From the NCBI RefSeq assembly GCF_003697845.1, contig NZ_RDQE01000003.1, forward strand, positions 87,174 to 151,173: a stretch of DNA of 64,000 nt, in the 5' to 3' direction. The position numbers and the translations under genes were made by a program. Shown piece by piece: positions 48,372-64,000 of the stretch; position 1 is the first letter of the stretch; each line of letters opens with the position of its first letter. Source of the DNA: Halobellus captivus. GTDB lineage: Archaea; Halobacteriota; Halobacteria; Halobacteriales; Haloferacaceae. Below the pieces are notes generated by a model. The model saw only the letters and a list, made by a program, of their open reading frames with translations, searched no databases and was not told where the DNA came from.

Positions 48372-48876
48372 ACGCGTCGACCGCGTCCCAGTCGGTGAAC
48401 TCGACGTCTCCGTTCGGCGCCCGTTCCTCGGTGAGTAGGTCCTTCGCGATCCGCTTCATCATCAGGCGTTTGAGGAACCCGTACTCGGAGAACCGAAGCG
48501 CGCCGCCGAACTGCCCGATTCGATCCGGGTGCCACCCGGTTTCCGTGAGAAACGACTCGACGTATCCCGCAGCTTCTTCGCGTTTCTCCTCGTTCGCCGA
48601 GGACAGCGAAACCTGGAAGAACGCGGTCGGCATCTCTGAGAGGATGTCTCGATTGTCGGTGATGAAGTCGTGAACCTCCTTCTGGTGTTTCCCGACGTGG
48701 ATCGAGGCACCCACGACGACGGCGTCGTAGACTTCCAGGGTGAACGAGTCCGGTCGGTCACGCACGTCGATCGCGCTCGCCTCGTGGCCGCGCTTGCTGA
48801 TTGTGGCCGTGATCCGTTCTGCGATCTTCGCCGTCTGGCCTTCGCCCGTCCCGTAGAGTACCAGGAAAGAGCTCAC
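48295..48876 (-). CDS. Flavodoxin-domain protein (HemG-like)
   Basis: 193 residues from GTG at 48876; a GTG at 48888 is an alternative. SSFLVLYGTGEGQTAKIAERITATISKRGH is the FMN-phosphate loop, followed by DAVVVGASIHVGKHQKEVHDFI, as in menaquinone-dependent protoporphyrinogen IX oxidase HemG-type flavodoxins. Activity in heme synthesis is possible. Its start abuts the remnant of a CPBP protease gene on the same strand. Confidence 0.72.
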   Translation of the reverse strand: MSSFLVLYGTGEGQTAKIAERITATISKRGHEASAIDVRDRPDSFTLEVYDAVVVGASIHVGKHQKEVHDFITDNRDILSEMPTAFFQVSLSSANEEKREEAAGYVESFLTETGWHPDRIGQFGGALRFSEYGFLKRLMMKRIAKDLLTEERAPNGDVEFTDWDAVDAFTADVSAFVEGRLGVAPDTPEDSRY

Positions 48877-49932
48877 GTGTTCACACACCTCTGTACGTGC
48901 GTTCGCCGCGTCAGCAGATAAATTCCGGTAGATCCTGTGATTCCATCCGATTCACGGCTCGACGCAGGCATTGATTCGCGCCGGAGCAACTCGGTACTTG
49001 CAATGGATGTCCATCGTCGGTGGGTTTCATTCTGCGGCGTCTGATTCAGTCTCCGCTGGGAGGCCGGCGTCTTGGGGGTCGGTGGATCGCGGTTCGCGAG
49101 GCGGTCAGCGCCGTAGACGACGACTAGGAGGATCGCGACCAACACGAGGGGAACGGCGCCGGTGACTTCGGCGAGCAGGTTCAGCCAGGGATCCGGCGCA
49201 CCGTTCGGGATGAGCGCCTCTTGGTCGGCGGGGTGGAAGATCCCCATGACGTTAATGCCGGCGTGGAACACTGCGACGGCGAGGACGCTCCCGACAGTGC
49301 TGTTGTACATCCACGTCCAGAGGGTGGATCCAGCAAGGATGGAGACCATCCGGAGGAGTTGCTGGGAGAGCGGCCAGCCGCCGTGGGTTGTGGTAGCGTT
49401 CAGGAACAGCGGGAGGTGCCAAGCCGCCCACGTGACGCCCACGACGGCACTCGACACCAGCGCGCTGTAGGATCCTGGAGGATGGGCAGCATGAAGCCAC
49501 GCCACCCGAGGTCCTCTTGACCGCCATCCCACACGGTTCCCCACGCCATCGCGAACAGGTAGATGAACGGCGATTCGAACTCGGTAAGGTCGATCGGGCC
49601 ACCGGCGACGACGAACAGCAGAACGCCGAGCGAGAGGATGATGAACTGAAATCCGAGTGCGAGCGCCACCATTTCGCGCCGATCCGCCATTTGAACGTCT
49701 GGCCGACCCAGGTGCGGAGGCTCCCACCGGAGGCCCAGATGACGACCGCCGCGCCGATGGGCGGGCCGAACCCGCCGAAGCCGATCAGGATCGAGTGCGT
49801 CCAGGAGGCTTCCATACCTGAATAGGCGAGGGTGCCCTGGATCGTCCAGGTGAACGCGTACGCGATTGCGACGAAACTCAGGGGGCGATGCCGATCGATC
49901 CACGCACGGATCCCGGAGTTCATCAACAACAT
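48873..49932 (-). pseudogene. CPBP (CAAX protease) intramembrane metalloprotease broken by two frameshifts
   Basis: Three adjacent minus-strand frames carry one CPBP protein. From the ATG at 49932, MLLMNSGIRAWIDRHRPLSF... to FKWRIGAKWW lies in one frame. Near 49670 the sequence moves to a second frame (VALALGFQFIILSLGVLLFVV...GGQEDLGWRGFMLPILQ, with the EDxxWRG catalytic-type motif), and near 49470 to a third (YSALVSSAVVGVTWAAWHLPLFLNA...FHAGINVMG, with the second His motif). Each change needs one inserted or lost base. All active-site motifs survive, but the gene is not expressed as a full protein as sequenced. Confidence 0.7.
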
Positions 49933-50104
49933 TTGTACTAGAGATCGGGCTTGATCATACTCCTTCAGTATCCGGACGAAATTCGTGTATGAGTCACTGA
50001 GGTCAGTAGTATCCCTAGAGGATAGTTCGGTGGAGAGCGCCGTATATTCCGGCTTGGTCGCTCGTAGAGACGTTTCTGAGGACGGTGACCGTGTATTCGA
50101 GGTA

Positions 50105-50794
50105 GTGTTCAGATAAGCAGATTCCATGCGAAGCCGAACGATCTGAGCCATTCGTCGGCAGTTTCTGCTTCGGCGTTGCTGAAAGAGTTTGAGAAGATGA
50201 TAGTTCTACGTTTTATCCCACGAGAGACACGTTCGACACTGTTCCGGTTTCCATGTCGTTCGTATCTGAAACCGAGGCCGTGTTTGCGACAGGATCGCTG
50301 AAGTGGAGCCGCGCCATCGACGAGAACGGTCGCGTCATCGACATCGTGTTTGTCGAGGAGTTCCGCGAAGAATTGATCGGCGATCGCGTTATTTCTCGTC
50401 GGCTCGAGCCGTGTATGTAGCGGATCGTTTGATTGAGGATCGACAGCAGCGTACAGCCAATAGTGTTCATCGTCGAGTTGAATCACGGTCCCGTCAACCG
50501 CAACGTGATTCGGGCACCGACCAGTTTCTGGCTGTAGATCCGCTTTGTGAACCCAGTTATGAACGGTCGATCGAACTCGATCAACACCGGATATCTCAAG
50601 AAACGAAACAGTATTTGAGAGCGATAGTTCAGACGAATAGAGCCGAATACTGAGCTTCATCAACAGCCTCGGTGTTGCCTCTCGCTCCACAAACTCTACC
50701 GTGATCTCGTCTAAACAGCCACTGAGGCGATCGTTTTCGGGCATAGATCACTTTGAAAACGCACCGCCTCTCCTTTCCATCCTTATCTGAACAC
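50105..50794. mobile_element. IS6-family insertion sequence with 13-bp terminal inverted repeats
   Basis: Left repeat GTGTTCAGATAAG (50105-50117) and right repeat CTTATCTGAACAC (50782-50794) are exact reverse complements, bounding a 690-bp element with one transposase. The 8 bp outside each end (left TCGAGGTA, right CGCCACAC) are not duplicated, which may mean replicon-fusion or adjacent deletion rather than simple insertion. The right end cuts into a Usp-domain remnant. Confidence 0.85.
50109..50744 (-). CDS. IS6-family transposase
   Basis: 211 residues, apparently intact. DDE residues are Asp84 (VAVDGTVIQL), Asp143 (TVLVDGAAP) and Glu171 (NSVERV); VHKADLQPETGRCPNHVAVDG and FRYERHGNRNSVERVSRGIKRR are typical of haloarchaeal IS6 (ISH14/15-like) enzymes. 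The N-terminal HTH is short. Start at 50744 (MPENDRLSGC). Confidence 0.87.
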   Translation of the reverse strand: MPENDRLSGCLDEITVEFVEREATPRLLMKLSIRLYSSELSLSNTVSFLEISGVDRVRSTVHNWVHKADLQPETGRCPNHVAVDGTVIQLDDEHYWLYAAVDPQSNDPLHTRLEPTRNNAIADQFFAELLDKHDVDDATVLVDGAAPLQRSCRKHGLGFRYERHGNRNSVERVSRGIKRRTIIFSNSFSNAEAETADEWLRSFGFAWNLLI

Positions 50795-51251
50795 CGCCAC
50801 ACTCTAATCATTGAGCGCTCGACTGGGTCAGAGGCACTCTTAGACACCGATGCGGAGTGGATCGAAGATCACGCACCCTGTGACGTTATCGAGGTATCGA
50901 ATCTCGATCACGACACGACCAGACACATCGGCGTCGTTACCGACGAGGGACCATTCGATCCAACAAAGGTTGCACTGGCCGACGCGCTGGCTACTGCGGT
51001 CGGTGCCACGATCACATGTTACTCCCCTACCAGTACCGAGTCGCCCGAAAGCCGCCGGAACACTATCGAAGATTACCTCTCAGAGTTGGAAGCACTCTGT
51101 GAATCCCCGGTTGAAACGCAGATCCTCCAGTCGGGAACTGACTCGAGGGAGAGATCCAGTGACAGCCGGAACGGAACACGGTACACCCGTCGTTTATGTA
51201 GTGAGCCAGCCCGGACGACTCCGTCAGGCAGTCGAACGGCGATTATTCTAA
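50795..51251 (+). pseudogene. Remnant of a Usp-domain protein, probably from an APC-type transporter
   Basis: Immediately after the IS end, HTLIIERSTGSEALLDTDAEWIEDHAPCDVIEVSNLD and HIGVVTDEGPFDPTKVALADALATAVGATITCYSP give the C-terminal Usp-like region found in haloarchaeal amino-acid permeases. The 5' part is missing. Near 51130-51170 the frame shifts; the end (GTPVVYVVSQPGRLRQAVERRLF) is read in another frame. It overlaps the CinA gene by 4 bp at its end. Confidence 0.55.
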
Positions 51252-51967
51252 CTGCTTTCGGATATCTCCGGGTGTTCCATTAGCCACCGTGCGGCCGCTT
51301 CCACCACGCTAGAGTTGGTTGATCTGACCTTGATACGTTTGTTTTCTCTCCCCTCCTCAGGGTAACAACCGACCGTCACGTCGAATTCCGTCCGGACGCC
51401 GTCGAGTATCTCGTTGAGGTGGCTCTCGGTCTCAGTCGAGCGGAGCGTCTTCGTGAACACGTCCCCTTCGAACTTGGAGACGATCTGCTCGAAGGTGGAT
51501 CGCATCTCGGATGGCATACCCGGGATCACAAACACGTTTTCACAAACGAACCCGGGAGCGATCCCCACATCGTTCTCGAGCACTTCGCTTCCCCTGGGTC
51601 GAAGGGCAGCTCGTTCGAGATCGAACTCGAATTCCGGAGCGTCGTTTCGGATCTCCTTGACGGCAGTCGATATCTGCTGATATGTCCGATGATCCCTTTC
51701 GATATCTAGGTTAAGTCCTTTGGCCACGCCCTCGACCGTGACGTCGTCCGGGGTTGACCCGAGTCCGCCCGTGACGACGACTGAATCGTAGCGTTCGCTG
51801 TGGTCGGCAATGGTCTCTGCGATCCGGTCGACTACGTCCGGGATGACGGTGATCTCCGTCACGTTGACGCCGCGTTCGGTAAGTCGCCTCGCGAGCCAGC
51901 TGGCATTGGTGTTCTCGATGTCCCCCGCGAGTAATTCGTCTCCCACGGTTATGATGGCGACGCGCAT
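51248..51967 (-). CDS. CinA N-terminal/MoaB-type molybdopterin-binding domain protein
   Basis: 239 residues. MRVAIITVGDELLAGDIENTNASWLARRLTERGVNV, then VVTGGLGSTPDDVTVEGVAKGL and GIAPGFVCENVFVIPGMPSEMRSTFEQIV are the molybdopterin/CinA N-terminal motifs. No C-terminal deamidase is present, as in archaeal CinA-N proteins, which may bind MPT or hydrolyse ADP-ribose-like compounds. It lies downstream of mftE on the same strand. Confidence 0.8.
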   Translation of the reverse strand: MRVAIITVGDELLAGDIENTNASWLARRLTERGVNVTEITVIPDVVDRIAETIADHSERYDSVVVTGGLGSTPDDVTVEGVAKGLNLDIERDHRTYQQISTAVKEIRNDAPEFEFDLERAALRPRGSEVLENDVGIAPGFVCENVFVIPGMPSEMRSTFEQIVSKFEGDVFTKTLRSTETESHLNEILDGVRTEFDVTVGCYPEEGRENKRIKVRSTNSSVVEAAARWLMEHPEISESS

Positions 51968-52084
51968 ACCGGAGAGTATAGCGGGAGATCGAAGATAGTT
52001 TCGCAGACAAATCGTATCAGCGTGTCGTACCACGGGTTCGCTCGAGTCATGGTGATCGGTCCCGAAATGACCCGTGAGCGTCCT

Positions 52085-52870
52085 TCACGGGTTCGCGGCA
52101 GTCCGTTCGCTGTGGATCCAGTCGGAGAATTCCTCGGTCAGCACCGATAGGAGGTGTTCTCCGGCCTCTGTAGTCGCCACCGTCGGGTCGCCGAGAACGC
52201 CTGACTCGGTTACCGCCTCGAATCCATGATTGAGGATACGGGCGTACGATACGTCACCCTCGTGGCCGGGGTCGGCATCCTCCATCGAGACGAGGTCGGG
52301 TTCGATCGCCAGCATCGCCGCGGTTTCGGTTGCCCCCGCGTGAATCACTGGTTCGTCGATCTCAATACCCACCTCGGAGAGGGCTCGGTTCATCGCCTTC
52401 GTGTATCGATCCAGATCAGCGATGGGGACTACGGTCGTCTCGGGTAGTTCGTCGGCGAGTTCGGGGGCGATCGTTCGCACCGGCGGGATATTCCCGCCGT
52501 GTGTCGGGAGTAACACGACAGTTTCGACTCCGTGAGTGGCAACCGATCGAACGTGTCCGCGGATGGTTTCGAACAGCGCGTCGATCCCGACGCTTATCGT
52601 ACCGGAGAACGAGGTGTGTTCCTCAGAGACGCCAACTCGAATGACCGGTGCCACCAGCGCATCGCCCAATTCCGCCGCGAGACGACACCCGAGAGACTCA
52701 CCGATGAACGAGTCAGTACCAAGCGGCAAGTGCGGTCCGTGTTGTTCAACGGCGCCGATCGGGAGGATAACTGTACGGGACCCGTTTTCGATACGTCTCT
52801 GGATATCGGGCCACGAGAGTCGTTCAAGCAGATACTGGTTGCGGCGTTGTCGACGTTTCTCCTGGCTCAT
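52085..52870 (-). CDS. mftE: Creatininase-family peptidase, MftE-like
   Basis: 261 residues. Metal-binding motifs: PIGAVEQHGPHLPLGTDS with Glu42, His44 and Asp53, THGGN with His124, and HAGATETAAM with Glu182. In mycobacteria MftE removes the modified C-terminal Val-Tyr unit of MftA to give the AHDP core of mycofactocin. The assignment rests on the family plus its place opposite mftABC. Plain creatininase-family hydrolases look alike, so specificity is inferred. ATG at 52870. Confidence 0.75.
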   Translation of the reverse strand: MSQEKRRQRRNQYLLERLSWPDIQRRIENGSRTVILPIGAVEQHGPHLPLGTDSFIGESLGCRLAAELGDALVAPVIRVGVSEEHTSFSGTISVGIDALFETIRGHVRSVATHGVETVVLLPTHGGNIPPVRTIAPELADELPETTVVPIADLDRYTKAMNRALSEVGIEIDEPVIHAGATETAAMLAIEPDLVSMEDADPGHEGDVSYARILNHGFEAVTESGVLGDPTVATTEAGEHLLSVLTEEFSDWIHSERTAANP

Positions 52871-53107
52871 AGACCGAAATTCGCTCGTGCCCGCGAATAA
52901 TCTTTGCGCCGACCCCTGACCCTGAGGAGAATGGATATGATCTCGAAGTCGAAACCTGTTGACCCCCCTTCGTCGAGCCGTCTGTTTATCACTGCCGAAC
53001 CAGAAACAGGTGGGTTTTGGTTGCGTGTAATCGGAGTTGGTTGCCCTACCTGAATCGAGGGTCGCCTATCCAAACGTATTTGTGGATCGGATACACAACG
53101 CTACCAT
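52871..53107. promoter_or_regulatory. Divergent promoter region between mftE and mftA
   Basis: 237 bp with no gene. On the mftE side an AATAATCTTT (52897-52906) is positioned about 30 bp before its ATG. On the mftA side AAACGTATTTG (53072-53082) is about 30 bp before the mftA ATG. Both fit TATA boxes of leaderless archaeal messages. No clear operator palindrome is seen. Confidence 0.4.
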
Positions 53108-53248
53108 ATGTCACGGAGAGTATCAGAAACGGATCCGGAGGAATCAGCCACCGACAAGACGGCTTCTCGGTCCGACGACGATCCGGATATTGAGGAGGAC
53201 CTGTTCGAGGAGGAACTCCGGATCGACGGAATTTGTGGCGTGTACTGA
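53108..53248 (+). CDS. mftA: Mycofactocin precursor peptide MftA
   Basis: 46 residues: MSRRVSETDPEE... ending in ELRIDGICGVY. The conserved MftA tail is IDGxCGVY, here exact, and the last two residues Val45 and Tyr46 are the ones that MftC converts to the AHDP lactam. The N-terminal half is acidic and variable, including a Ser/Asp/Glu linker. The stop is one base before the mftB ATG. Its small size explains why it is easily missed. Confidence 0.9.
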   Translation: MSRRVSETDPEESATDKTASRSDDDPDIEEDLFEEELRIDGICGVY

Positions 53249-53249
53249 G

Positions 53250-53489
53250 ATGGCGACCCTTGCCAGACCTGACCACATCAAGTTCCGTCGGGAGGCGGAC
53301 GGGGGACTGGTGTACGACCACGAAAACTACGGTTACGAGGATGCATCGATGTACGAGGTGAGCGACACCGTCATCGACGTCCTAGAGTTCGTCGAAAACG
53401 AGAACGACCGAGAGGCCGTCGAGAGCCAGTTCTCTCCGGCCGTGGTAGCGACGCTGATCGACCGGGGGGTGCTCGCGGATGTCGAGTGA
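53250..53489 (+). CDS. mftB: Mycofactocin peptide chaperone MftB
   Basis: 79 residues, RRE (PqqD-like) fold: RPDHIKFRREADGGLVYDHENYGYEDASMYEVSDTVIDVLEFVEN. It binds the MftA leader and presents it to MftC. Start 1 bp after mftA, and the end overlaps mftC by 11 bp, showing coupling. Confidence 0.85.
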   Translation: MATLARPDHIKFRREADGGLVYDHENYGYEDASMYEVSDTVIDVLEFVENENDREAVESQFSPAVVATLIDRGVLADVE

Positions 53490-54456
53490 GTCCCGTGCGT
53501 CGAGTGAGCCCCTGTCAGCACCGGTCACGATCACGTGGGAGGTGACGCTTGGTTGTAACCTTCATTGCGATCACTGTCTCTCAGGTAGTGGTCCGGGCCA
53601 CCAACTCCCGAACGAGCTCACGACTGAGCAGGCCCACGCCTTCATCGGCGAACTAGATGAGATGGACGTGTTCCAAGTCAACATCGGCGGCGGTGAGCCG
53701 TTCGTCCGCCCCGATATGTTGGAACTACTCGAAGACCTCACTAACCGGAACATCTCCACCTGCGTGAGCACGAACGGTACCCAACTCGATGAGGCTACGC
53801 TGGATCGGATCGAGGCGATGGATCCGCTATTCCTCCAAGTTAGTATGGATGGCCTCCAGCCCGAGAACGACGCGATCCGCGGCGAGGGCGTGTACGACCA
53901 AGTCGTCGATACGCTGGAACGGCTGGAGGACCGTGACATCGGGACGACCGTCAACACCGTCGTCACGCGGCGGAACGTCGAAGACCTGCCGGAGATCTAC
54001 GATCTCGCAGAAGCCCACGGTGCCGGCCTGCGCCTGAACCGCTTCCGCCCCAGTGGTCGGGGCGAGGACACTTGGGACGAGTTCCGGCTGACTGAGGAGC
54101 AGATCCGATTCCTCCACGGGTGGATCGAGGACTATCCCGACGTCCGGACTGGGGACTCCTTCTTCTACCTCAACGCGCTGGGCGAGGTACGAAACAATAC
54201 GCTCAAACAGTGTGGCGCGGGCTCGATGACCTGTCTGGTTGACCCCGCAGGCGACGTGTTCCCGTGTGCGTTCACGCAATGGGACCACCTCGCATCAGGC
54301 AACGTCGTCGAGGACGGCTTCCAGACCGCATGGGACGAGATCGCCAACCTTCGGAGCCAGATCGACGACCACGAGGGCTGTCCCGCGGTCGCAATGGGGA
54401 GTTCGGACCCCGACGGGGAGGACCCACAGCTGCGGGCGATCCTCTCTGGCGATTGA
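53479..54456 (+). CDS. mftC: Mycofactocin radical SAM maturase MftC
   Basis: 325 residues. Radical SAM cluster CNLHCDHC (Cys26, Cys30, Cys33), then the GGEP motif (residues 71-74) and the SAM barrel. The C-terminal SPASM region keeps CGAGSMTC (Cys245, Cys252) and Cys263, plus Cys301 in DHEGCPAV. The expected Cys-rich part before and after it (the CGxC...CRGGC-type stretch of actinobacterial MftC) is missing, so the auxiliary cluster is reduced. It performs decarboxylation of Tyr46 and the Val-Tyr cross-link. Shorter than the roughly 390-residue mycobacterial enzyme. Confidence 0.87.
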   Translation: MSSESRASSEPLSAPVTITWEVTLGCNLHCDHCLSGSGPGHQLPNELTTEQAHAFIGELDEMDVFQVNIGGGEPFVRPDMLELLEDLTNRNISTCVSTNGTQLDEATLDRIEAMDPLFLQVSMDGLQPENDAIRGEGVYDQVVDTLERLEDRDIGTTVNTVVTRRNVEDLPEIYDLAEAHGAGLRLNRFRPSGRGEDTWDEFRLTEEQIRFLHGWIEDYPDVRTGDSFFYLNALGEVRNNTLKQCGAGSMTCLVDPAGDVFPCAFTQWDHLASGNVVEDGFQTAWDEIANLRSQIDDHEGCPAVAMGSSDPDGEDPQLRAILSGD

Positions 54457-54459
54457 ATC

Positions 54460-56820
54460 GTGCCGACCTCCGCCGCCGCTTCCGCCGTTCACGGCAACGA
54501 TCGAACCACCCACGGCGTCGGCGAGTACCGTCGACGCGACACTGTTTCGATCGTCGACAACGTGGTCGTTTCACGGCGCCCGTTGACCGCAACCCGGATC
54601 AACGATGCCGCCATCTCGCTGCTCCACGAACTCGACGACGACAATTTCCGAACACCTGCCAGCGTCGCCGCTGAGACGAATCACGACCTCGAGACTATCC
54701 ACCGCCTGTTCGAGCGTCTCGCAGCACGGGACTTCTTGGAGTGGCAGCCCTCACGAGATCCCGATCACCAGCCACCAGTGTCGATCGTCATTACGGTTCG
54801 AAACGACCGCGATCATCTCGCACGCTGTCTCGACACGCTGGCCGAACTGGACTATATCGACTACGAGGTGCTCATCGTCGACGACGGCTCGACTGACGGT
54901 ACGAGGGAGACGGTCACGGGTCATCCGCTTGCCCTCGACGGACGGGTACGGTACATCGAGGTCGGGACTCCCGACGAACCGCTCGGTATCGGCGCCGCGC
55001 GGAATCGTGGCGTCGAGGAGGCGAACCACGAGGTGATCGCGTTCACTGACGCAGATTGTCGCCCGCGATCGACGTGGCTCTCCGAACTCGTACCGTATCT
55101 CGCCACGAACGACGTGGTCGGGGGGCGGATCCGTCCGGCTGGCGAGAGCGCCGCGAGCGTGTACGAAGGGATCAACTCGTCGCTCGACATGGGACGATAC
55201 GCATCACGCGTCGATCCCGACGGCTCCACGCCGTACCTCGCGACCGCGAACCTCGTGGGACGGCGTCGCGTCTTCGAATCGATCCCGTTCCCCGATCGGA
55301 ACATCGCGGAGGACGTCGACGTCTGCTGGCGGGCTCTCGACGCCGGATTCGATGTCGTCTACACGCCCACGGGTATCGTCGAGCACGAGTACCGTGAGAG
55401 CCTGGGTGCGTTCGCCACACGTCGGTCGACGTACGCCGCTTCGGAAGCGCTGCTGGCGTGTGAGTACGGGCGCGACCGCGGCGACCGAGTGGACATCCCG
55501 ATACACCTCCTCCTTTTATTCGCGGGTGTGGCCGTCGCGCTCCTCGGTGACGGTCCGGTCGCGACTGTAGGACTCGTCGGCGCCGGCGTTTTTACCCTCG
55601 CAGCCGTCGGTTACGACGGGTCGCGTGTGAGACGCCGATACAGACGCCTTCCGGGACCGGTGTCTCGTTCCGACGTGCTTCGAAGTCGAATACGAGAGTG
55701 GTTGTCGACGACGTACGCGACGACACGTGAGATAACTCGGTACTATGTGGTTCCGATCCTCCTCGTCGGCGTTGGTATCTGGATCGCCGGCGAGCCTGTA
55801 CTCGCGGTCGGCGTCCTCTGTGGGACAGCAGTAGCAGTCGCGCTCCCGTTTGCCGTCGAATACCGTGTTCACGACCCGGACACGTCGATCACGGAATACG
55901 GCCTGTATTACCTCGCGGATCACTTCGGATACCAGCACGGTGCCTATCGTGGGACGTTCGAACACCGTACTGCCGCCCACCTCGATCCGCGAGGGCGCTT
56001 CCGTCTCGTCGGACCTGGCACTGGAATGCTCACTCGTTTCCGATCGATCCGGAAAGAGGACGGAGACCCGTTCCGCTCAGTGACTGTGGGCGACGTCACG
56101 GCACGCTTTCACGTCCAATCGAGCGCGGAGCGGTGGTGGTTCGAGTCGACATCGCTCCGCGGAGAACGGTTGGTGCTCCGAGATCTGCTCGAACGGATCG
56201 ATTCCGACGACGTGTTCCTCGACATCGGCGCGAACATCGGCCTGTACAGTTGTCTCGTCGGCTGTACGCTCGACGACGGCACCGTCGTTCCCGTCGAGCC
56301 GCATCCAGAGAATGCAGCACGGCTAGCCGAGAACCTCGTGGCGAACGATATCGATACGGACGTCGTTCGGCGTGCCCTCGGTGGTGCGGCCCGAAACGGG
56401 ACACTCTCGGCGGCGGACGAGCCACCGGGAACAGGGACTCCTGCCCTCGTCGGCAACACGCCGTTACCGGACGGTGCGACCGTGGACACCGATGAGAACA
56501 CCGTCGAGACGCCAGTCGTCACTGGCGACTCTTTGGTCTCGGCAGGCGAGATACCACGGCCATCGATCGTCAAGATTGACGTGGAAGGAGCGGAGGCGGC
56601 TGTCATCGAGGGTCTCTCGGTAACTCTGTCGACACCGGCTTGTCGGCTCGTCTACTGCGAGGTACATCCGGAAGGATTGAAGCAACGAAACCGCGAGCCT
56701 GACGATATCCGCGAAGCGCTCCGTAATCGGGGCTACGATGTCGAGACGGTACAGGAGCTATCGGACGGTCGGACGATTCTCAGAGCCAAGGTGGTAACAC
56801 CCGCCAAGGGCTTGCAGTAG
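54460..56820 (+). CDS. mftF: MftF glycosyltransferase fused to FkbM-type methyltransferase
   Basis: 786 residues from a GTG 3 bp after mftC. Residues about 25-98 form a small PqqD-like helical domain. The GT2 domain (about 106-330) begins VSIVITVRND, with Asp-Asp 141-142, TDADC 196-200 and the AEDVD motif 283-287. Four hydrophobic helices occupy about 347-466. After a linker, residues about 540-775 form an FkbM methyltransferase: DDVFLDIGANIGLYS (SAM loop, about 583-597), VPVEPHPENAARL and IVKIDVEGAEAAVIEGL. MftF adds glucose units to mycofactocin. The methyltransferase probably caps a glycan, comparable to mycobacterial MftM, which is separate. Confidence 0.85.
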   Translation: MPTSAAASAVHGNDRTTHGVGEYRRRDTVSIVDNVVVSRRPLTATRINDAAISLLHELDDDNFRTPASVAAETNHDLETIHRLFERLAARDFLEWQPSRDPDHQPPVSIVITVRNDRDHLARCLDTLAELDYIDYEVLIVDDGSTDGTRETVTGHPLALDGRVRYIEVGTPDEPLGIGAARNRGVEEANHEVIAFTDADCRPRSTWLSELVPYLATNDVVGGRIRPAGESAASVYEGINSSLDMGRYASRVDPDGSTPYLATANLVGRRRVFESIPFPDRNIAEDVDVCWRALDAGFDVVYTPTGIVEHEYRESLGAFATRRSTYAASEALLACEYGRDRGDRVDIPIHLLLLFAGVAVALLGDGPVATVGLVGAGVFTLAAVGYDGSRVRRRYRRLPGPVSRSDVLRSRIREWLSTTYATTREITRYYVVPILLVGVGIWIAGEPVLAVGVLCGTAVAVALPFAVEYRVHDPDTSITEYGLYYLADHFGYQHGAYRGTFEHRTAAHLDPRGRFRLVGPGTGMLTRFRSIRKEDGDPFRSVTVGDVTARFHVQSSAERWWFESTSLRGERLVLRDLLERIDSDDVFLDIGANIGLYSCLVGCTLDDGTVVPVEPHPENAARLAENLVANDIDTDVVRRALGGAARNGTLSAADEPPGTGTPALVGNTPLPDGATVDTDENTVETPVVTGDSLVSAGEIPRPSIVKIDVEGAEAAVIEGLSVTLSTPACRLVYCEVHPEGLKQRNREPDDIREALRNRGYDVETVQELSDGRTILRAKVVTPAKGLQ

Positions 56821-57046
56821 TTCAGGAGGTGCGAACGCTCGCTTTCGATGGTGGGAGAAACGCCAGCGTGCGTACGGGGATATATTGAACCTCTTTGTCG
56901 TCGGATAGGGCCGTGCCAAAAGTCATTGATAGAATATATAACGGTCAATAGGGAATTTTCCCAAATAGTTAAAAGAGATGGTTGGTATCATTCTTGTGGG
57001 GACAGATAGCATGGACCACTCGAACATCTGTCTCCGGTGAATGCCA
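56821..57046. promoter_or_regulatory. Promoter region of the tandem dehydrogenases
   Basis: 226 bp between mftF and the first dehydrogenase. AGAATATATAAC (about 56931-56942) is a strong TATA-like box. An inverted repeat GGGAA-TT-TTCCC (56951-56962) lies just downstream and an AT-rich run follows. The ATG is about 100 bp beyond the TATA, giving a leader of roughly 80 nt. Regulator unknown. Confidence 0.45.
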
Positions 57047-57868
57047 ATGCCAACGTACGATTTTAGCGGGAAGGTCGCGTTCGTCACCGGTGGCGGACGG
57101 GGTCAGGGACGCTCACACGCACAGCACTACGCGAAACACGGCGCCGACGTCGTCGTCACCGATATCTGCGAAAACATCGGAACGAACCCCTACGAACTCA
57201 GCACGAGCGACGATCTCGCCGAGACGGCGAGCCTCGTCGAGGACGAGGGGCAGGAGGCGCTGGCGATCGAGATGGACGTTCGAGACGAGAGCGACGTCGA
57301 AGCCGCCGTCGACGAGGCGCTCGACGAGTTCGGCCGGATCGATATCCTCGCCAACAACGCCGGAATCTTCAACGCATCGGAGGCGACGGAAATGGACGAG
57401 GCGATGTGGGACGAGATGATCGACACGAACCTGAAGGGCGTGTGGCTCTGTAGTAAGCATGTCGGCCAGCATTTCATCGACCGCGGCGACGGCGGTAAGA
57501 TCGTCACGACCTCTTCGACTGCGGGCTTCGTTGGAACACCGGCGAACGGCCACTACGTTGCGACCAAACACGGAGTACGCGGCCTGACGAAGACGCTGGC
57601 GCTGGAACTCGCCGAGTACGACGTCAACGTCAACGCCGTCGCACCGACCGGTATCGACACGCCGATGATCTCCGGTTACGTCGAGTCGTACGGCGAGGAG
57701 ATGCTCAATCAGATCGCTGAGCTGACCGGACCCTTCAACGTTTTCGGTGACGGGGGAATGATCGAGGCGAAAGACATCAGCGAGGCATACATGTGGCTCT
57801 CCAGCGACGCCGCACGCTACGTCACCGGGATCACGCTCCCGGTCGACGCCGGAATGCTCGCGAAGTGA
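57047..57868 (+). CDS. Mycofactocin-coupled SDR nicotinoprotein dehydrogenase 1
   Basis: 273 residues. The SDR motif TGGGRGQG (residues 14-21), NNAG, Ser156/157, Tyr170 and Lys174 (YVATK) are complete. The extra segment between the Rossmann Asp (DI-CENIG...) and MDVRD (about residues 41-78) is the insertion typical of mycofactocin-associated SDRs, thought to hold NAD so tightly that an external acceptor is needed. ATG 57047 is chosen over 57041 because it aligns with the next gene (MPEYDFSGKV). Substrate alcohol unknown. Confidence 0.85.
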   Translation: MPTYDFSGKVAFVTGGGRGQGRSHAQHYAKHGADVVVTDICENIGTNPYELSTSDDLAETASLVEDEGQEALAIEMDVRDESDVEAAVDEALDEFGRIDILANNAGIFNASEATEMDEAMWDEMIDTNLKGVWLCSKHVGQHFIDRGDGGKIVTTSSTAGFVGTPANGHYVATKHGVRGLTKTLALELAEYDVNVNAVAPTGIDTPMISGYVESYGEEMLNQIAELTGPFNVFGDGGMIEAKDISEAYMWLSSDAARYVTGITLPVDAGMLAK

Positions 57869-57890
57869 CCGACCAGTTAAGCTACAGACG

Positions 57891-58712
57891 ATGCCAGAGT
57901 ACGACTTCAGCGGCAAGGTGGCGTTCGTCACCGGCGCCGCACACGGCCAAGGACGATCGCACGCACAGCACTACGCGAGACACGGTGCCGACGTCGTCGT
58001 CACCGATATCGCCGAGAACATGGAGACTGTTCCATACGATCTCGGCACCCAGGACGAGTTGACGGAGACGGCGAGCCTCGTCGAGGACGAGGGGCAGGAG
58101 GCGCTGGCGATCGAGATGGACGTCCGTGACGAGGCCAAGGTCGAGGCCGCCGTCAACGAGGCGCTCGACGAGTTCGGCCGGATCGACATCCTCGCCAACA
58201 ACGCCGGGATCGCTCATTTCTGTGAGCTCGTCGAGATGGACGAGGCGATGTGGGACGAGATGCTTGACACGAACCTGAAGGGCGTGTGGCTCTGTGCGAA
58301 ACACGTCGGCCAGCACTTCATTGACCGTGGCGACGGCGGCAAGATCGTCTCCACGTCGTCCATCTACGGGAAGGTAGCAGGACCCGGTTCCGGTCACTAC
58401 ATCGCCGCGAAACACGGCGTATTGGGGTTGACGAAGACGTTAGCGCTTGAGCTGGCCGAGTACGACGTCAACGTCAACGCCGTCTGCCCGACCGGCGTCG
58501 ACACGCCGATGATCACCGGAGTGACGGAAGCGTACGGAGCGGAGCCACTGGAGGCCGCAACGGACATGACCGGTCCCTGGAACATCTTCAGTGACGGGGG
58601 AATGATCGAGGCGAAAGACATCAGCGAAGCGTACATGTGGCTCTCCAGCGAAGCCGCACGCTACGTCACCGGGATCGGACTCCCCGTCGACGCGGGAATG
58701 CTCGCAAAGTGA
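57891..58712 (+). CDS. Mycofactocin-coupled SDR nicotinoprotein dehydrogenase 2
   Basis: 273 residues, same length as its neighbour and very similar throughout, except near the active site (SSIYGKVAGPGSGHYIAAK with Tyr170, Lys174) and 205-240. TGAAHGQG forms the dinucleotide loop. The insertion after DIAENME is retained. It is 22 bp downstream of the first copy, indicating tandem duplication; differences around the substrate pocket suggest different alcohols. Confidence 0.85.
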   Translation: MPEYDFSGKVAFVTGAAHGQGRSHAQHYARHGADVVVTDIAENMETVPYDLGTQDELTETASLVEDEGQEALAIEMDVRDEAKVEAAVNEALDEFGRIDILANNAGIAHFCELVEMDEAMWDEMLDTNLKGVWLCAKHVGQHFIDRGDGGKIVSTSSIYGKVAGPGSGHYIAAKHGVLGLTKTLALELAEYDVNVNAVCPTGVDTPMITGVTEAYGAEPLEAATDMTGPWNIFSDGGMIEAKDISEAYMWLSSEAARYVTGIGLPVDAGMLAK

Positions 58713-58816: not shown

Positions 58817-59674
58817 CTAGAGCAGGCCGTTCCGCTGGAGGTACGCTACGACCTGCTCCGCCGCCTCCTCGGGTGACGCGTCGATCCGCTCGCCGGCGCT
58901 TGTACCGTCCTCGGTCCCGCGACCGAGCATCCGGTAGATCCGCTCCTCGACGGTCCCCGTTCGCGGCGGGCGCCCCCGCCCCCAGCGCTCGTTTGGTGTC
59001 ACGTCTTCCACCGTCGCGGCACCGACGCTCATTGAAAACCGGGACTCGCCCGGCGCGACGTCCGACAGCGCCACGGTCTCGATGTCGGCCTGCTGCCCGT
59101 CGATGACGGTCGACAGGGGCGCTCGGTCGGGATCGGTGTAGCCGGCATCGACCCCGAACACGGCAGGGGGTTCGACGGCGACTGCCTCCTGCCGGCCGAT
59201 CGCTAGCTTCCGCTGAACGGCGAGTTCGTCCTGCTCGACAACGACGTCCGCGTCGAGGTTCGACGCCCCGAGTTGCGTCATCCGGGTTGCGGTCGGCCAG
59301 TCCAGATGCTCCCCGACGAACGTCGCGATCTCGGAACCGACGAACGACGACGACTGCCCGACTACGACGAGGTCCGGGGACTCGCGAGCAACGACGCGGG
59401 CCAGCACGGTCGCGTACTTGTCGCCGGCGGCGTCCTCGATCGGATCGTACTCGACGTGCAGTCCCGAATCGGCCCCGCGTTCGAGCGCGGTCCGGACGCA
59501 GCCCCGGGCGGGCTCACCGCCGATCCCGACGGCCGTTACCTCGTCGGCGACGTCGCGAGCAGCCGCGAGCGCGACATGGTCGTCGATGCTCAGCTGGTGC
59601 CGATACGGCTCCGCGTTCCCGTCCCGGTCGACCACGCGGTGTGGCTCCGGTCGGGTAGTGACGATCGCCTTCAT
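58817..59674 (-). CDS. etfB: Electron transfer flavoprotein beta subunit (FixA-like)
   Basis: 285 residues. KAIVTTRPEPHRVVDRDGNAEPYRHQLSIDDHVALAAARDVAD, ARVVARESPDLVVVGQSSSFVGSEIATFVGEHLDWPTATRM and the recognition-loop type ELAVQRKLAIGRQEAVAVEPPAVFGVD match EtfB. It pairs with EtfA (62138-63142) to carry FAD-bound electrons. Last gene of the minus-strand operon; start overlaps the upstream dehydrogenase stop by 4 bp. Confidence 0.85.
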   Translation of the reverse strand: MKAIVTTRPEPHRVVDRDGNAEPYRHQLSIDDHVALAAARDVADEVTAVGIGGEPARGCVRTALERGADSGLHVEYDPIEDAAGDKYATVLARVVARESPDLVVVGQSSSFVGSEIATFVGEHLDWPTATRMTQLGASNLDADVVVEQDELAVQRKLAIGRQEAVAVEPPAVFGVDAGYTDPDRAPLSTVIDGQQADIETVALSDVAPGESRFSMSVGAATVEDVTPNERWGRGRPPRTGTVEERIYRMLGRGTEDGTSAGERIDASPEEAAEQVVAYLQRNGLL

Positions 59675-60450
59675 CGCGCCGTGTACCCCCCGTCGACCGG
59701 GATCGTCGCCCCGGTGACGAACGCCGCGTCCTCCGACGCCAAAAACGCGATCGCACGGCCAACGTCCGCCGGGTCGGCGATCCCCAGCGGCGTCTCCTCG
59801 ATCATCTCCTCGGTCGTGGTGGGGAGGTCCTCGTCGCTCTCCTCGGCCAGCGCCTGCTCCAGCATCGGCGTCTCCACGATTCCGGGGCAGATCGTGTTGG
59901 CCCGGATCTCGGGGGCGTACTCGACGGCGATGGAACGGGTCAGCGAAACCAGCGCCCCCTTCGTCGCCGTGTAGATGTCCATCCCCGGCTCCGCGATCAG
60001 CGCCGCGATCGAGGCGTTGTTCACCACGACGCCTGTGCCGTCGCCGGTGTCGAGCATCGCGGGAATCGCGTGCTTGCAGGCGTACATCGGCCCCTTGAGG
60101 TTCACACCCGTCAGGAACTCGTAGGCCTCGTCCTCGAACTCGGCGATCGGTCCGTCGGCCTCCTGCGAGGCGACGGCGGCGTTGTTCACCAGTATGTCGA
60201 CGCTTCCGAACGCCTCCTCTGCGTGTCCGACCATCGCCGCCACGGCATCCTCGTCACTGACGTCGGTCTCGACGAATGAGGCGTCCCCATCCTCCTCTGC
60301 AGTGATGACTGCCGCCAAGGCTTCGCCGTCCTCGACTGCGAGGTCCGCGACGACGACGTCCGCACCGCGCTTGGCGAGGGTTTCGCACGTCGCCGCGCCG
60401 ATGCCACTCGCGCCGCCAGTCACGATCGCCGTCCGGTCGTTTAGGTACAT
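59671..60450 (-). CDS. Short-chain dehydrogenase/reductase
   Basis: 259 residues. TGGASGIGAA (12-21), NNAA, catalytic Ser in NASIAALIAEPGMDIYTATK with Tyr/Lys. It lacks the mycofactocin-type insertion, so it is a classical NAD(P)-exchanging SDR, such as a 3-hydroxyacyl/alcohol dehydrogenase. Embedded in the ETF operon, it may act on the same substrates. Confidence 0.87.
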   Translation of the reverse strand: MYLNDRTAIVTGGASGIGAATCETLAKRGADVVVADLAVEDGEALAAVITAEEDGDASFVETDVSDEDAVAAMVGHAEEAFGSVDILVNNAAVASQEADGPIAEFEDEAYEFLTGVNLKGPMYACKHAIPAMLDTGDGTGVVVNNASIAALIAEPGMDIYTATKGALVSLTRSIAVEYAPEIRANTICPGIVETPMLEQALAEESDEDLPTTTEEMIEETPLGIADPADVGRAIAFLASEDAAFVTGATIPVDGGYTAR

Positions 60451-60452
60451 AG

Positions 60453-60743
60453 TCAGCCGAAGTCGAACTCGACTCCCTTTCCGCCCTCAGCCTTCGACCA
60501 AGAGACTGCGCCCTTGTCGGGATCGTTCGCACAGAACACCATGCAAGCGCCACACTCCACACATGGCTCGTACGCGAAGTAGATCCCACCCTCCTGATCC
60601 TCTTGATAGTCGAAGCACTGCGCGGGACAGAGGTGTAGGCAGGGCTTGTCTTCACAGGTGATACACTGCTCGTTGTCGACGGTGATGTGGGCGTCCTCGC
60701 TCACGTCCCAGTTCACCGTCTCCAGGTCGTCCTGAACACTCAT
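60453..60743 (-). CDS. fixX: FixX-type ferredoxin
   Basis: 96 residues. Two Cys groups: CITCEDKPCLHLCPAQCF and CVECGACMVFCANDP. The FixX/ETF-QO iron-sulfur domain holds one 4Fe-4S cluster and accompanies FixC. The gene precedes the SDR by 2 bp. Confidence 0.9.
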   Translation of the reverse strand: MSVQDDLETVNWDVSEDAHITVDNEQCITCEDKPCLHLCPAQCFDYQEDQEGGIYFAYEPCVECGACMVFCANDPDKGAVSWSKAEGGKGVEFDFG

Positions 60744-60827: not shown

Positions 60828-62141
60828 TCACAGCGATCTGAACCCCCGGTAGCCGTCCTTGACGAGATCGAGGAGTCCCGCGTCACTTCGCCGGAACGCG
60901 CGATACGCCTGTCGCCACGTTAGTCCCGTGGCGTCGGTCTCCGCGGAGTACATCGCCCTGAGCGTCTCGGTCGCGATCCCCGGGTACGCGTCGTACATCC
61001 GCTCGTTCTTCAGGAACTTCGGAAGGTGACGGTGCTGTTTCATGTCCTGCAGCACGTACGAGTTCTCGAGCCGGTCATCGTACCGCCGACCGAACGCGTC
61101 CCAGTTCCCGTCGGCCTCGCACTCGATCGCGGCCTCGGCCGCGACGAGACCGCTCTTGATGCCGTAGTCGAGCCCGCGGAACGTGTACCCCTTGTTGAGC
61201 ACGAGGCCCGCGGCGTCGCCGACGAGTGCGACCCGCCGGTCCTGTCGGTCCGGAAGGGTGTCGTAGGAGTGTTCCGGCACCAGAATGCCCTGGTACTCCT
61301 CGACGGCGTCACCCTGGACGTACGGTCGGACGGTGTCCAGTTCCATGAACTCCTCCAGCAGTCCGTACAGGGGTGTCCCGGAGTCGCCGTACCCCTCGTC
61401 GCCCAGCCAGCGGAGCGTCTCGAGGCCGCCGACCGCGCCGACGGAGATGTACTCGTCGAACGTGTAGATGAAGTAGCCGATCGTCGGCGCGCCCTCGGGG
61501 AAGCCGGTGTAGATGTACGCGGCCCCCTCATCGCTGTCGAGGTTGAACCGCCGGTCAATCTCGTTGCGGCCGACGTCGACGACCTTCTTCACCGACAGCG
61601 CCATGTCCTCGTTGCGCATCGTGCGCTGGATCCCGGTCCTCCGACCGACCGTAGTGTTCACGCCGTCGGCGCCGATGACCGCGTCACAGACGATGTCGCC
61701 GTCCAGGCGGTCGGTGTGGACGATCGCCCGATCGTCCTCCTGGGTTACGTCCTGCACCGACGTCTCAGAGACGAACGTCACCCCGTGCTCGACCGCGCGG
61801 TCGACGAACCACCGGTCGAACTTCCCAAGCATCAGCGTGTAGTTTGGCTCTTCACGGAGTTCGAGGTCGCGGTAGCCGATCGACACCTCAGCGTCGCCGT
61901 GGAGAAGCTTGATGTTGTGTTCGACCACGTGGCGCTCCAGCGGCGCCTCCTCGGGGAACCCCGGCAGCAGGTCGTCGAGGATACTGCCGTAGAGCACGCC
62001 ACCGGTCACGTTCTTCATCCCGGGCTGTTTGGCCCGTTCGACCAGCGCGACGTCGAACTCCTCGTCGGCGAGCTTGTACGCGGCCGCGACGCCGGCACGG
62101 CCCGCGCCGACGACCACCACGTCGAAGGCGGCGTCGGTCAT
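60828..62141 (-). CDS. fixC: FixC-type electron transfer flavoprotein:quinone oxidoreductase
   Basis: 437 residues. DVVVVGAGRAGVAAAYKLADEEFDVALVERAKQPGMKNVTGGVLY binds FAD. GDAAGLVLNKGYTFRGLDYGIKSGLVAAEAA is the FixC/ETF-QO membrane/quinone-facing motif, as in the FixABCX complex. With FixX it takes electrons from the ETF to quinone. The start overlaps the EtfA stop by 4 bp. Confidence 0.9.
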   Translation of the reverse strand: MTDAAFDVVVVGAGRAGVAAAYKLADEEFDVALVERAKQPGMKNVTGGVLYGSILDDLLPGFPEEAPLERHVVEHNIKLLHGDAEVSIGYRDLELREEPNYTLMLGKFDRWFVDRAVEHGVTFVSETSVQDVTQEDDRAIVHTDRLDGDIVCDAVIGADGVNTTVGRRTGIQRTMRNEDMALSVKKVVDVGRNEIDRRFNLDSDEGAAYIYTGFPEGAPTIGYFIYTFDEYISVGAVGGLETLRWLGDEGYGDSGTPLYGLLEEFMELDTVRPYVQGDAVEEYQGILVPEHSYDTLPDRQDRRVALVGDAAGLVLNKGYTFRGLDYGIKSGLVAAEAAIECEADGNWDAFGRRYDDRLENSYVLQDMKQHRHLPKFLKNERMYDAYPGIATETLRAMYSAETDATGLTWRQAYRAFRRSDAGLLDLVKDGYRGFRSL

Positions 62142-63142
62142 TCGGCCACCCCCTCGGCCGTCGCCGACTCGTCGTCGGCTCTGGCGCGGCGGACCGCCTC
62201 GGCCAGCGCGGGGCCGTACTCGTAGGCGTCGCCGACGATACCGATATCGGCGAAGTTGAAGATCCGCGCGTCGGGATCGGTGTTGATCGGGATCAGGTGG
62301 TCGGCGTTCACCGAGCGCATGTGGTACGAGTCACCCGAGATCGCGCAGGGGACGTACAGCTCCACGTCGATCTCCTTGCCCGTCACGCCGATCTGCCGGT
62401 CGTAGGGGACCCACCCTTCGTCCGACGGCGGGCGGGAGGCCCCGACGGCGGCACCGAACGCGTCGGCGAGCTCATCGATCAGCTCGAACCCGTCCGCGCC
62501 GCCGAGGCCGAACCCGCCGGCGACGATGCGCCGCGCCTTCGAGAGGTCGTCCTCCGGGACTTCGAGCGTCTCGACGTGTCGGAGCCGGTCGTCGTCGGTC
62601 ACGTCGACCTCGACCGTTCGGCCCGTGGGATCGCCCTCGGGCGGCTGGTCGGGCGTCCCCAGCGCTTCGGTGTTCAGCGTCACGACGGGTGGCTCCCGCT
62701 CGAAGGCGAACTCCGCGTACGCACGGCCGCCGTAGGCGGGTCGCCCCCCGAGCAGTTCGCCATCCCGCACGCGGAGCAGACAGTCGGTGACGCAGACCCC
62801 TCGCTGACGGCGCGCCGTCGCCGCCGCGAGGTCGGCGCCATCGGCAGTGTCGGGCAACAGGACGGCACGGGCATCCTCGGTGAGTTCGGCCAGCGCTTGC
62901 GACCGTGCGTGGACACCCGCCGCGCCCGAGGCAAACGTGCCGGCCGGCCGGGTCACGTGCAGTACCTCGTCAGGGGACCCTGCCGCCACGTCGTCCGGCG
63001 CGACGATGCCGTCGAAGGCGACGGCGAAGACATCGGGCGGCTCGGAGACCGAGTCCGCGTCACCGAGCGCCTCGGCGAGTCGGTGCGCTTCGTCCAGCAG
63101 TGCGATATCGTCCGCGTCGGGAACCGCAACGATCTGGCTCAT
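62138..63142 (-). CDS. etfA: Electron transfer flavoprotein alpha subunit (FixB-like)
   Basis: 334 residues. The N-terminal half has VAVPDADDIALLDEAHRLAEALGD; the C-terminal FAD domain reads RRIVAGGFGLGGADGFELIDELADAFGAAVGASRPPSDEGWVPYDRQIGVTGKEIDVELYVPCAISGDSYHMRSVNADHLIPINTDPDARIFNFADIGIVGD, diagnostic of EtfA. Unlike usual EtfA, the sequence is HMRSV-type at the conserved HLAGM position; still EtfA-like. Confidence 0.88.
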   Translation of the reverse strand: MSQIVAVPDADDIALLDEAHRLAEALGDADSVSEPPDVFAVAFDGIVAPDDVAAGSPDEVLHVTRPAGTFASGAAGVHARSQALAELTEDARAVLLPDTADGADLAAATARRQRGVCVTDCLLRVRDGELLGGRPAYGGRAYAEFAFEREPPVVTLNTEALGTPDQPPEGDPTGRTVEVDVTDDDRLRHVETLEVPEDDLSKARRIVAGGFGLGGADGFELIDELADAFGAAVGASRPPSDEGWVPYDRQIGVTGKEIDVELYVPCAISGDSYHMRSVNADHLIPINTDPDARIFNFADIGIVGDAYEYGPALAEAVRRARADDESATAEGVAE

Positions 63143-63158: not shown

Positions 63159-64000
63159 TCATGTCGATAGCTCCCGGGCGAGCATCTCGCCGTCGTAGAT
63201 CGCCTTGTCGATCAGTCGCGGTGCGACACAGTCGCCGATGCGGTGGACCGAACCGGCCGCGAACCCCTGTTCCTCCAGCGCGCCGGCGAGGCCGGTCCGA
63301 GCCTCCCGGCGCTCGGCTACGACGAGCGAATCGGCGGACACAGTGTCTACGTCCTCGGAGTAGACGTTGAGCAACTGCGCGGTGTTGTCCTCGAAGCCAA
63401 TGACGGTGGCGTGGGTCTCGATGTCGACGTCGTGTTCGTACAACGTCTCCATGAACGGCGGGACGTTCGTGCCCTCCAGTTGGTCGCCCGGGTGGTAGGA
63501 GGTCGTCACGAACGTCACGTCGTGGTCGGCCGCGAGGTACTCTGCGACGCCGACCCCCGCGGCGTGTTTGTTGTTGTCGAAAACGATCACCGAGCCGCCG
63601 ACTGCCTCGCCCTGTAACACGTCCCACGAGCGGTGGACGTCCGGCCCCTGGAGATCCGGCTGGCTCTCACTGGCTCCGATGGCGACGATGACGTCGTCCC
63701 ACGCGTTGGGATCGACGTCCTCCGGGACGACCTCGGTGTCGGTCTCGACGGTTACGTCGCGGTTGCCGAGTTGGTTTTTGAGGTTTCGGACCGCGTCGCC
63801 GAACTCCTGTCTGGAGTCGACCCGTGTCGCGATGTTCGACTGCCCGCCGAGCTCGGTCTCACGCTCACGGATGGTGACCTGATGGCCGAGATCTGCGGCC
63901 GTCACCGCGAACGAGAGCCCTGCCGGCCCTCCACCGACGACGAGTACGTCCCGCGGCGTCGATGCTGGTTCGCGGTCCTCGATGTGGGGGATCCTCGTCT
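63159..64000 (-). CDS. FadH/old-yellow-enzyme-type oxidoreductase, C-terminal part (runs off window)
   Basis: At least 280 residues, 5' end outside the window. A Rossmann FAD/NAD fold is seen: DVLVVGGGPAGLSFAVTAADLGHQVTIRERETELGGQ, later VGGSVIVFDNNKHAAGVGVAEYLA and a C-terminal HRIGDCVAPRLIDKAIYDGEMLARE, typical of the 2,4-dienoyl-CoA reductase/OYE second half. Relatives accompany mycofactocin loci. The stop is 16 bp from the etfA start. Confidence 0.8.
   Translation of the reverse strand, partial: TRIPHIEDREPASTPRDVLVVGGGPAGLSFAVTAADLGHQVTIRERETELGGQSNIATRVDSRQEFGDAVRNLKNQLGNRDVTVETDTEVVPEDVDPNAWDDVIVAIGASESQPDLQGPDVHRSWDVLQGEAVGGSVIVFDNNKHAAGVGVAEYLAADHDVTFVTTSYHPGDQLEGTNVPPFMETLYEHDVDIETHATVIGFEDNTAQLLNVYSEDVDTVSADSLVVAERREARTGLAGALEEQGFAAGSVHRIGDCVAPRLIDKAIYDGEMLARELST

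Follow-up and report, generated by a model that had tools for sequence, protein, structure and literature searches.

A haloarchaeal mycofactocin locus without MftD, and an OYE/ETF/Fix module as its candidate replacement

The stretch of Halobellus captivus DNA analyzed here (64,000 nucleotides, hereafter the window; positions 87,174 to 151,173 of contig NZ_RDQE01000003.1) lies on a 330-kb contig of a haloarchaeal genome that is 99.6% complete, and it carries a locus for the redox cofactor mycofactocin (mft). A sequence-only reading had placed an mftE-type peptidase gene, mftA, mftB, mftC, mftF and two short-chain dehydrogenase/reductase (SDR) genes at 52085–58712. TIGRFAM/NCBIfam and Pfam profile searches, together with the translations, bear this out: mftE, mftA, mftB2, mftC, mftF and two mycofactocin-coupled SDR genes are all intact and stand in that order (Table 1). 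The identity of the locus is likewise upheld by the precursor MftA, which ends in CGVY and thus has the Val-Tyr core expected of a mycofactocin precursor, and by the curated models for MftB2, MftC and both SDRs, which are matched above their cut-offs. MftE and MftF fall just below theirs: MftE scores 165 bits against TIGR03964 (cut-off 172), its best model by far, and MftF scores 275 bits against TIGR03965 (cut-off 280), which it matches over nearly the full length and to which it adds a fused domain; its homologue in Haloterrigena turkmenica is annotated mftF. The MftA core is conserved across the other haloarchaeal loci, and the divergent orientation of mftE relative to mftA is the same in H. 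turkmenica. The locus extends past 58712 to the window end and further. It includes a module of electron transfer flavoprotein (ETF) subunits, FixC/FixX and Old Yellow Enzyme (OYE) family flavoenzymes, and, past the window end, a ChlI/ChlD-like chelatase pair, six SDRs resembling the first two (eight mycofactocin-coupled SDRs in the cluster in total), a second flavoenzyme (OYE-B) and an IclR regulator.

Table 1. Features of the mycofactocin locus, in window coordinates
Feature	Position	Strand	Assignment	Evidence
mftE	52085..52870	-	Creatininase-family peptidase, predicted to free the modified Val-Tyr core	TIGR03964; Pfam Creatininase, 214 bits
mftA	53108..53248	+	46-aa precursor, C-terminus RIDGICGVY	Translation
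mftB2	53250..53489	+	Peptide chaperone	NF043018, 133.5 bits (cut-off 62)
mftC	53479..54456	+	Radical SAM maturase with reduced, twitch-like C-terminus	TIGR03962, 302 bits (cut-off 265)
mftF	54460..56820	+	Glycosyltransferase with fused FkbM (PF05050) methyltransferase domain	TIGR03965; TIGR01444, 87 bits (cut-off 37.7)
Mycofactocin-coupled SDR 1	57041..57868	+		TIGR03971, 335 bits (cut-off 300)
Mycofactocin-coupled SDR 2	57891..58712	+		TIGR03971, 326 bits (cut-off 300)
ETF beta subunit	58817..59674	-		Best model TIGR04503 mft_etfB, 84 bits (below cut-off 200)
SDR between ETF and FixX genes	59671..60450	-	Ordinary NAD type	NF005559, 239 bits
FixX-like protein	60453..60743	-	4Fe-4S ferredoxin	Fer4 motifs
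FixC-like protein	60828..62141	-	ETF:quinone oxidoreductase	NF007450, 266 bits; NF007542 FixC, 245 bits
ETF alpha subunit	62138..63142	-		Best model NF038209 mft_etfA, 128 bits (below cut-off 240)
OYE-A	63159..64000, crossing the window end (contig 150332-152293)	-	FadH/OYE-family FMN/Fe-S/FAD oxidoreductase	TIGR03997, 622 bits

The sequence-only reading had called the locus complete-looking and had noted that mftD is not in the window. The latter is correct as far as it goes, and the former does not survive. MftD is described as the enzyme that makes the redox centre of mycofactocin, by converting an amine into an alpha-keto amide. It is missing not merely from the window but from the whole genome, where a genome-wide search with its model (TIGR03966, for Rv0694) gave at most 27 bits against a cut-off of 470.85. 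In a survey of 392 Halobacteriales genomes, 11 carry mftC and none of these has MftD, TIGR03966 scoring at most 154 bits in all of them. MftG is absent as well, both from the 11 genomes and from every MftD-less bacterium of the OYE type (see below) that was tested. In some bacteria mftD lies apart from mftC, and one might thus suppose an ordinary bacterial-type locus whose mftD sits at another site in the genome; however, no TIGR03966 score comes near the cut-off in 11 near-complete genomes, and seven of the 11 lack even a convincing homologue of the flavin mononucleotide (FMN) dependent 2-hydroxyacid oxidases. The genome-wide search contradicts this explanation, unless all 11 assemblies happen to miss a replicon, and its remaining probability is negligible. 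That MftD is not universal in mft-bearing species is stated in Haft et al. 2011 (PMC3023750).

MftC departs from the bacterial form too. The C-terminus of bacterial MftC follows the pattern C-x6-C-x9-C ... CxxC-x5-C-x3-C-x17-C, in which auxiliary cluster II (AuxII) is assigned the CxxC pair, the cysteine that follows it and the final one, and AuxI the other four, on the basis of AhbD and aligned SPASM enzymes (PMC10452713). The window's MftC, whose match to TIGR03962 covers only model positions 7–286 of 339, conserves the CxxxCxxC motif (Cys26/30/33) and the AuxI residues Cys245, 252, 263 and 301, and the AuxII ligands (CxxC-x5-C...C) are gone. Precisely these four cysteines are missing, and the AuxI four kept, in 12 of 12 haloarchaeal genomes, whereas the full AuxII set is present in 96 of 96 bacterial MftC sequences. 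An AlphaFold model (mean predicted local distance difference test score, pLDDT, 75.7) has a radical-SAM barrel, a hairpin at 250–261 and helices at 281–293 and 302–307, the auxiliary-cluster region being of such low confidence that the model contributes little; its best PDB match is SkfB, a comparison that carries the same low C-terminal confidence and in which the clusters lie outside the model. The role of AuxII in SPASM enzymes has been described as unclear (PMC9012708).

Could the short MftC be an artefact or a sign of decay? A frameshift or assembly error was rejected, as the same architecture occurs in 12 genomes. The insertion sequence (IS) and pseudogene debris that the sequence-only reading had pointed out is indeed present, at about 47–51 kb, and its proximity would suit a decaying, non-functional remnant with a truncated MftC. 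However, 12 genomes share the new C-terminus (GCPAVAMGS.DP.GEDPQLRAIL) even as the remainder of MftC diverges to 74% identity, and the neighbouring reading frames are all intact; we regard a remnant as highly improbable. Among bacteria, one MftC (locus L151, genome G610) comes close to the reverse of the haloarchaeal situation, with one AuxI cysteine missing (CGAGRVVALID) and AuxII kept.

Each of the 11 haloarchaeal mft loci is adjoined by two FadH/OYE-type flavoenzymes, ETF alpha and beta, and FixC/FixX. Homologues of OYE-A, at 73% identity or more, occur in exactly the 11 mftC-bearing genomes, always beside mftC, and the next best relative among the other 381 Halobacteriales is 39% identical; OYE-B is distributed in the same way, adjoining mftC in each of the 11 and missing from the 381. 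The ETF beta gene is kept near mftC in all haloarchaeal loci, the FixX-like ferredoxin shares 68–98% identity with its counterparts, and the ordinary NAD-type SDR is present in most loci, not all. NCBIfam curators had already tied OYE 2 (TIGR03997) and ETF (NF038209, TIGR04503) to mycofactocin. These are the best models for OYE-A, OYE-B and the ETF subunits, although the haloarchaeal members score below the cut-offs: against TIGR03997 (cut-off 793), OYE-A reaches 622 bits and OYE-B 441, with the next family at 338 and 232, respectively.

In bacteria, MftD and the module replace each other. A first sample comprised 37 mftC-bearing genomes, with OYE_2 scored at 700 bits or more and one contig-edge MftD fragment counted as present; OYE_2 was found in nine of ten genomes without MftD and in one of 27 with it (p = 8e-7). 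The second sample was of 298 Actinomycetota genomes at least 95% complete, 60 of them with mftC (G420 and G406 were also in the first sample). Here, OYE_2 is present in all 13 mftC-bearing genomes that lack MftD (764–1005 bits, 12 of them above the curated cut-off), in none of the 47 that have MftD (best 562 bits) and in none of the 238 without mftC (best 575 bits), the exclusion having a Fisher p of 2e-13. Where MftD-less loci have enough flank, in Alphaproteobacteria, Chloroflexota and Actinomycetota, they read mftC-OYE1-OYE2-EtfA-FixC-FixX, at times with a single OYE. The module thus directly follows mftC, in the usual slot of mftD, and neither FixC nor EtfA turned up close to mftC in the mftD-bearing loci examined. 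A phylogenetic artefact is rejected as the sole cause of this exclusion. In an MftC tree computed with the AuxII columns left out of the alignment, the two types are interleaved and well-supported branches force at least seven changes, that is, at least seven independent switches; in phylogenetically independent pairs, OYE and MftD changed in opposite directions in an average of 6.8 out of 7 and never in the same direction (p about 0.016). From the presence of the module in haloarchaea, its place in the mftD slot and the reciprocal pattern in bacteria, we infer that OYE/ETF/Fix replaces MftD, and perhaps MftG too.

What chemistry might the flavoenzymes perform? The solved relatives of OYE-A include 2,4-dienoyl-CoA reductase, histamine dehydrogenase and trimethylamine dehydrogenase, with which it shares the fold family, judged by sequence, and the domain order (Oxidored_FMN plus Pyr_redox). 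Trimethylamine and histamine dehydrogenases deaminate oxidatively, and trimethylamine dehydrogenase hands its electrons to an ETF. Unlike these flavoproteins, OYE-A has neither the covalent-FMN cysteine nor Tyr166. In every one of 62 aligned mft-linked OYE proteins, G, S or A stands at the position of the ene-reductase Tyr166; the position of His252 aligns with a His in three OYE-B only and with another residue in the rest; and the 6-S-cysteinyl-FMN cysteine of the two amine dehydrogenases is absent from all, with Glu, Arg, Leu or another residue instead. The His matching the 'GAH' His of the amine dehydrogenases is present in OYE-A and most OYE_2 proteins. This pattern argues against ene reduction, and allows, without showing, an amine-acting dehydrogenase; the active-site residues support neither an ordinary ene-reductase nor a canonical trimethylamine dehydrogenase. 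The simplest reading of such an enzyme in company with ETF and FixCX is that it would oxidize 3-amino-5-[(p-hydroxyphenyl)methyl]-4,4-dimethyl-2-pyrrolidinone (AHDP), or reduced mycofactocin, and pass the electrons to quinone.

The locus is real and probably functional. With somewhat better than even confidence, we take it to be a mycofactocin locus that works and that belongs to a second type, one without MftD, in which OYE/ETF/Fix would replace the oxidation by MftD and MftC would run on its radical-SAM and AuxI clusters. What the data show is the gene content, MftD and MftG missing genome-wide, the exact co-occurrence, the repeated reciprocal replacement in bacteria and the loss of precisely the AuxII ligands; every chemical step of the pathway we infer, as follows. 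MftB2 would present MftA to MftC, which would decarboxylate and cross-link the C-terminal Val-Tyr using the radical-SAM and AuxI clusters only, and MftE would free the resulting AHDP, or a compound close to it. OYE-A, with OYE-B, would then carry out MftD's oxidation of the amine to the alpha-keto amide, the electrons flowing to the locus's own ETF and through FixC/FixX to the quinone pool. MftF would glycosylate the product, which its fused FkbM domain may methylate. The eight mycofactocin-coupled SDRs would work with the cofactor, whose re-oxidation may also run through this ETF/Fix chain.

Several points weigh against this proposal. First, haloarchaeal OYE-A and both ETF subunits stay below the curated mycofactocin cut-offs. 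Second, the exclusion has exceptions: Speluncibacter has MftD plus an adjacent OYE pair, two further MftD-bearing genomes have weaker OYE matches (612–684 bits), and one metagenome-assembled genome (L066) has neither MftD nor OYE. Third, the missing covalent-FMN cysteine in OYE-A/OYE_2 makes the amine-dehydrogenase analogy a loose one. Fourth, ETF with FixCX fits the re-oxidation of reduced mycofactocin (MFTH2) as well as it fits biosynthesis. Fifth, AuxII is reported to be necessary for the final product in bacterial MftC (PMC10452713), a requirement taken from a citing paper and not from the primary study. As to the second point, in Speluncibacter jeojiensis (L112) mftD directly adjoins OYE1-OYE2, and ETF/FixCX were not found in the locus; this could possibly be an intermediate of the MftD/OYE exchange, or OYE may have another role there.

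The fourth point leads to a different assignment of the module, in which it would replace MftG, not MftD, and would only re-oxidize reduced mycofactocin into the quinone pool, with the ketoamide made by an unrecognised enzyme. MftG ties mycofactocin oxidation to respiration (PMC11778925), electrons commonly enter respiration through an ETF:quinone oxidoreductase, and the absence of MftG from the 11 haloarchaea and the OYE-type bacteria would be in keeping with such a substitution. The exclusion, however, is with MftD. Most MftD-bearing genomes of the first sample lack MftG (it is above cut-off in only four) and yet lack OYE, and exclusion with MftG in place of MftD was not a better fit. In addition, the OYE genes occupy mftD's slot, and no other shared oxidation candidate was seen in the loci. 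We consider this assignment rather unlikely.

The fifth point bears on the end product. Should the AuxII requirement apply, the AuxII-less MftC might stop at decarboxylation or make another cross-link, and the downstream enzymes would have adapted to a related cofactor. The loss of exactly the four AuxII ligands (all 12 haloarchaea against none of the 96 bacterial sequences), the absence of MftD and the divergence of MftE and MftF are in favor of this. On the other hand, OYE-type bacteria keep AuxII, including the divergent L139-141, in which MftA also ends in VDGICGVY; MftD loss and AuxII loss are therefore independent events. The CGVY core of MftA and the mycofactocin-type SDR family are retained as well, and AhbD functions without AuxII (PMC10452713), so that the requirement is not universal. 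We find a related cofactor unlikely as the end product.

More broadly, and with a little less than even confidence, we suggest that mycofactocin biosynthesis comes in two types. In the second, an OYE pair, ETF and an ETF:quinone oxidoreductase would replace MftD (and MftG), joining the creation of the redox centre and its recycling to the quinone pool; haloarchaea would use only this type, with an MftC that has a single auxiliary cluster and possibly a distinct archaeal mycofactocin. Through the reciprocal replacement of MftD, an orphan enzyme family of the 'mycofactocin system' acquires a function open to testing; the replacement also suggests that the cofactor may be made, or used, in a second way, Archaea included. 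Haloarchaeal MftC, a member of the same curated family that has dropped exactly AuxII, offers a natural experiment on this cluster. In the literature searched, which was that open without subscription, we found no earlier description of the MftD/OYE replacement or of an AuxII-less MftC, and no paper linking ETF or OYE to mycofactocin, giving the mft-linked OYE a function or noting its exclusion with MftD.

The presence of mft genes in Archaea is known already: a cluster on a H. turkmenica plasmid is on record in the available portion of Haft et al. 2011 (PMC3023750), in which we found no mention of a reduced MftC or an MftD replacement, and NCBI annotation names mftA, mftB2 and mftC in H. turkmenica and Halolamina. 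The H. turkmenica pHTUR01 cluster (L044) contains the window's genes in the same order, with ETF, FixX, FixC, OYE-A, the chelatase-like genes, the SDR array and OYE-B among them. Its MftC is 86% identical to the window's and lacks the same AuxII ligands; two SDRs that separate mftF from the ETF gene, and a further one inside the ETF module, are present in the window and not in H. turkmenica. Compared with the mycobacterial mftA-F cluster, the window's locus shares the IDG-CGVY core of MftA, an MftB-like chaperone, an MftC above cut-off, MftE and MftF, both slightly below theirs, and SDRs, but it has no MftD or MftG in its genome, an MftC without AuxII, MftB2 instead of MftB, an MftF fused to an FkbM methyltransferase of a family unlike MftM, and the OYE/ETF/FixCX module.

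The sequence-only reading had also suggested horizontal gain, and both the distribution of the locus and the MftC tree support it. The 11 mft-bearing genomes among the 392 Halobacteriales are scattered over seven genera, and the locus is plasmid-borne in Haloterrigena and Halolamina (Halolamina sp. CBA1230); this scatter and the plasmid setting speak for spread by horizontal transfer. In a phylogeny against bacterial proteins, the MftC of haloarchaea falls into a single, well-supported clade (100/98) with a long branch, and together with L139-141 it is separated from all other bacterial MftC (100/99), a grouping to be read with caution for long-branch effects. Gene order is nearly identical in H. 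turkmenica and Halolamina and rearranged in the other haloarchaeal loci. Divergence is a mosaic: the window's MftC is 95% identical to that of Halolamina, but its MftE only about 45% and its MftF about 60%, and its MftE is nearest to the L038/L041 type (51–53%). Upstream of the locus, the debris (47172-51283) contains a truncated beta-lactamase-like gene, frame-broken reading frames at 49.2–50.2 kb and a DDE transposase fragment at 50.1–50.7 kb; beside it lies a MoCF-domain (CinA-like) gene (51248-52033).

Roughly every second haloarchaeal locus (the window, L033, L036, L044 and L059) has the FkbM domain (residues 585–760 in the window's MftF) fused to MftF, and the others lack it. The domain is not a fused MftM, as the Pfam families differ (PF05050 against PF08241) and NF041255 has no match; it could possibly offer another way of methylating mycofactocin sugars. 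The mycofactocin-coupled SDR paralogues form tandem arrays, six to nine per locus (L042:4683-10071, L049, L050, L051), which suggests diversification over many alcohol substrates. The ChlI/ChlD-like (cobaltochelatase/Mg-chelatase ATPase) pair, inside the cluster just past the window end (L042:1382-4500), recurs at that position in most of the haloarchaeal mft loci and is missing near L038/L039 and L041. Among bacteria, the plasmid of Streptomyces sp. NBC_00557 (L047) carries an OYE-type mft cluster adjoining a type I polyketide synthase, and tblastn finds mftC on six other Streptomyces plasmids.

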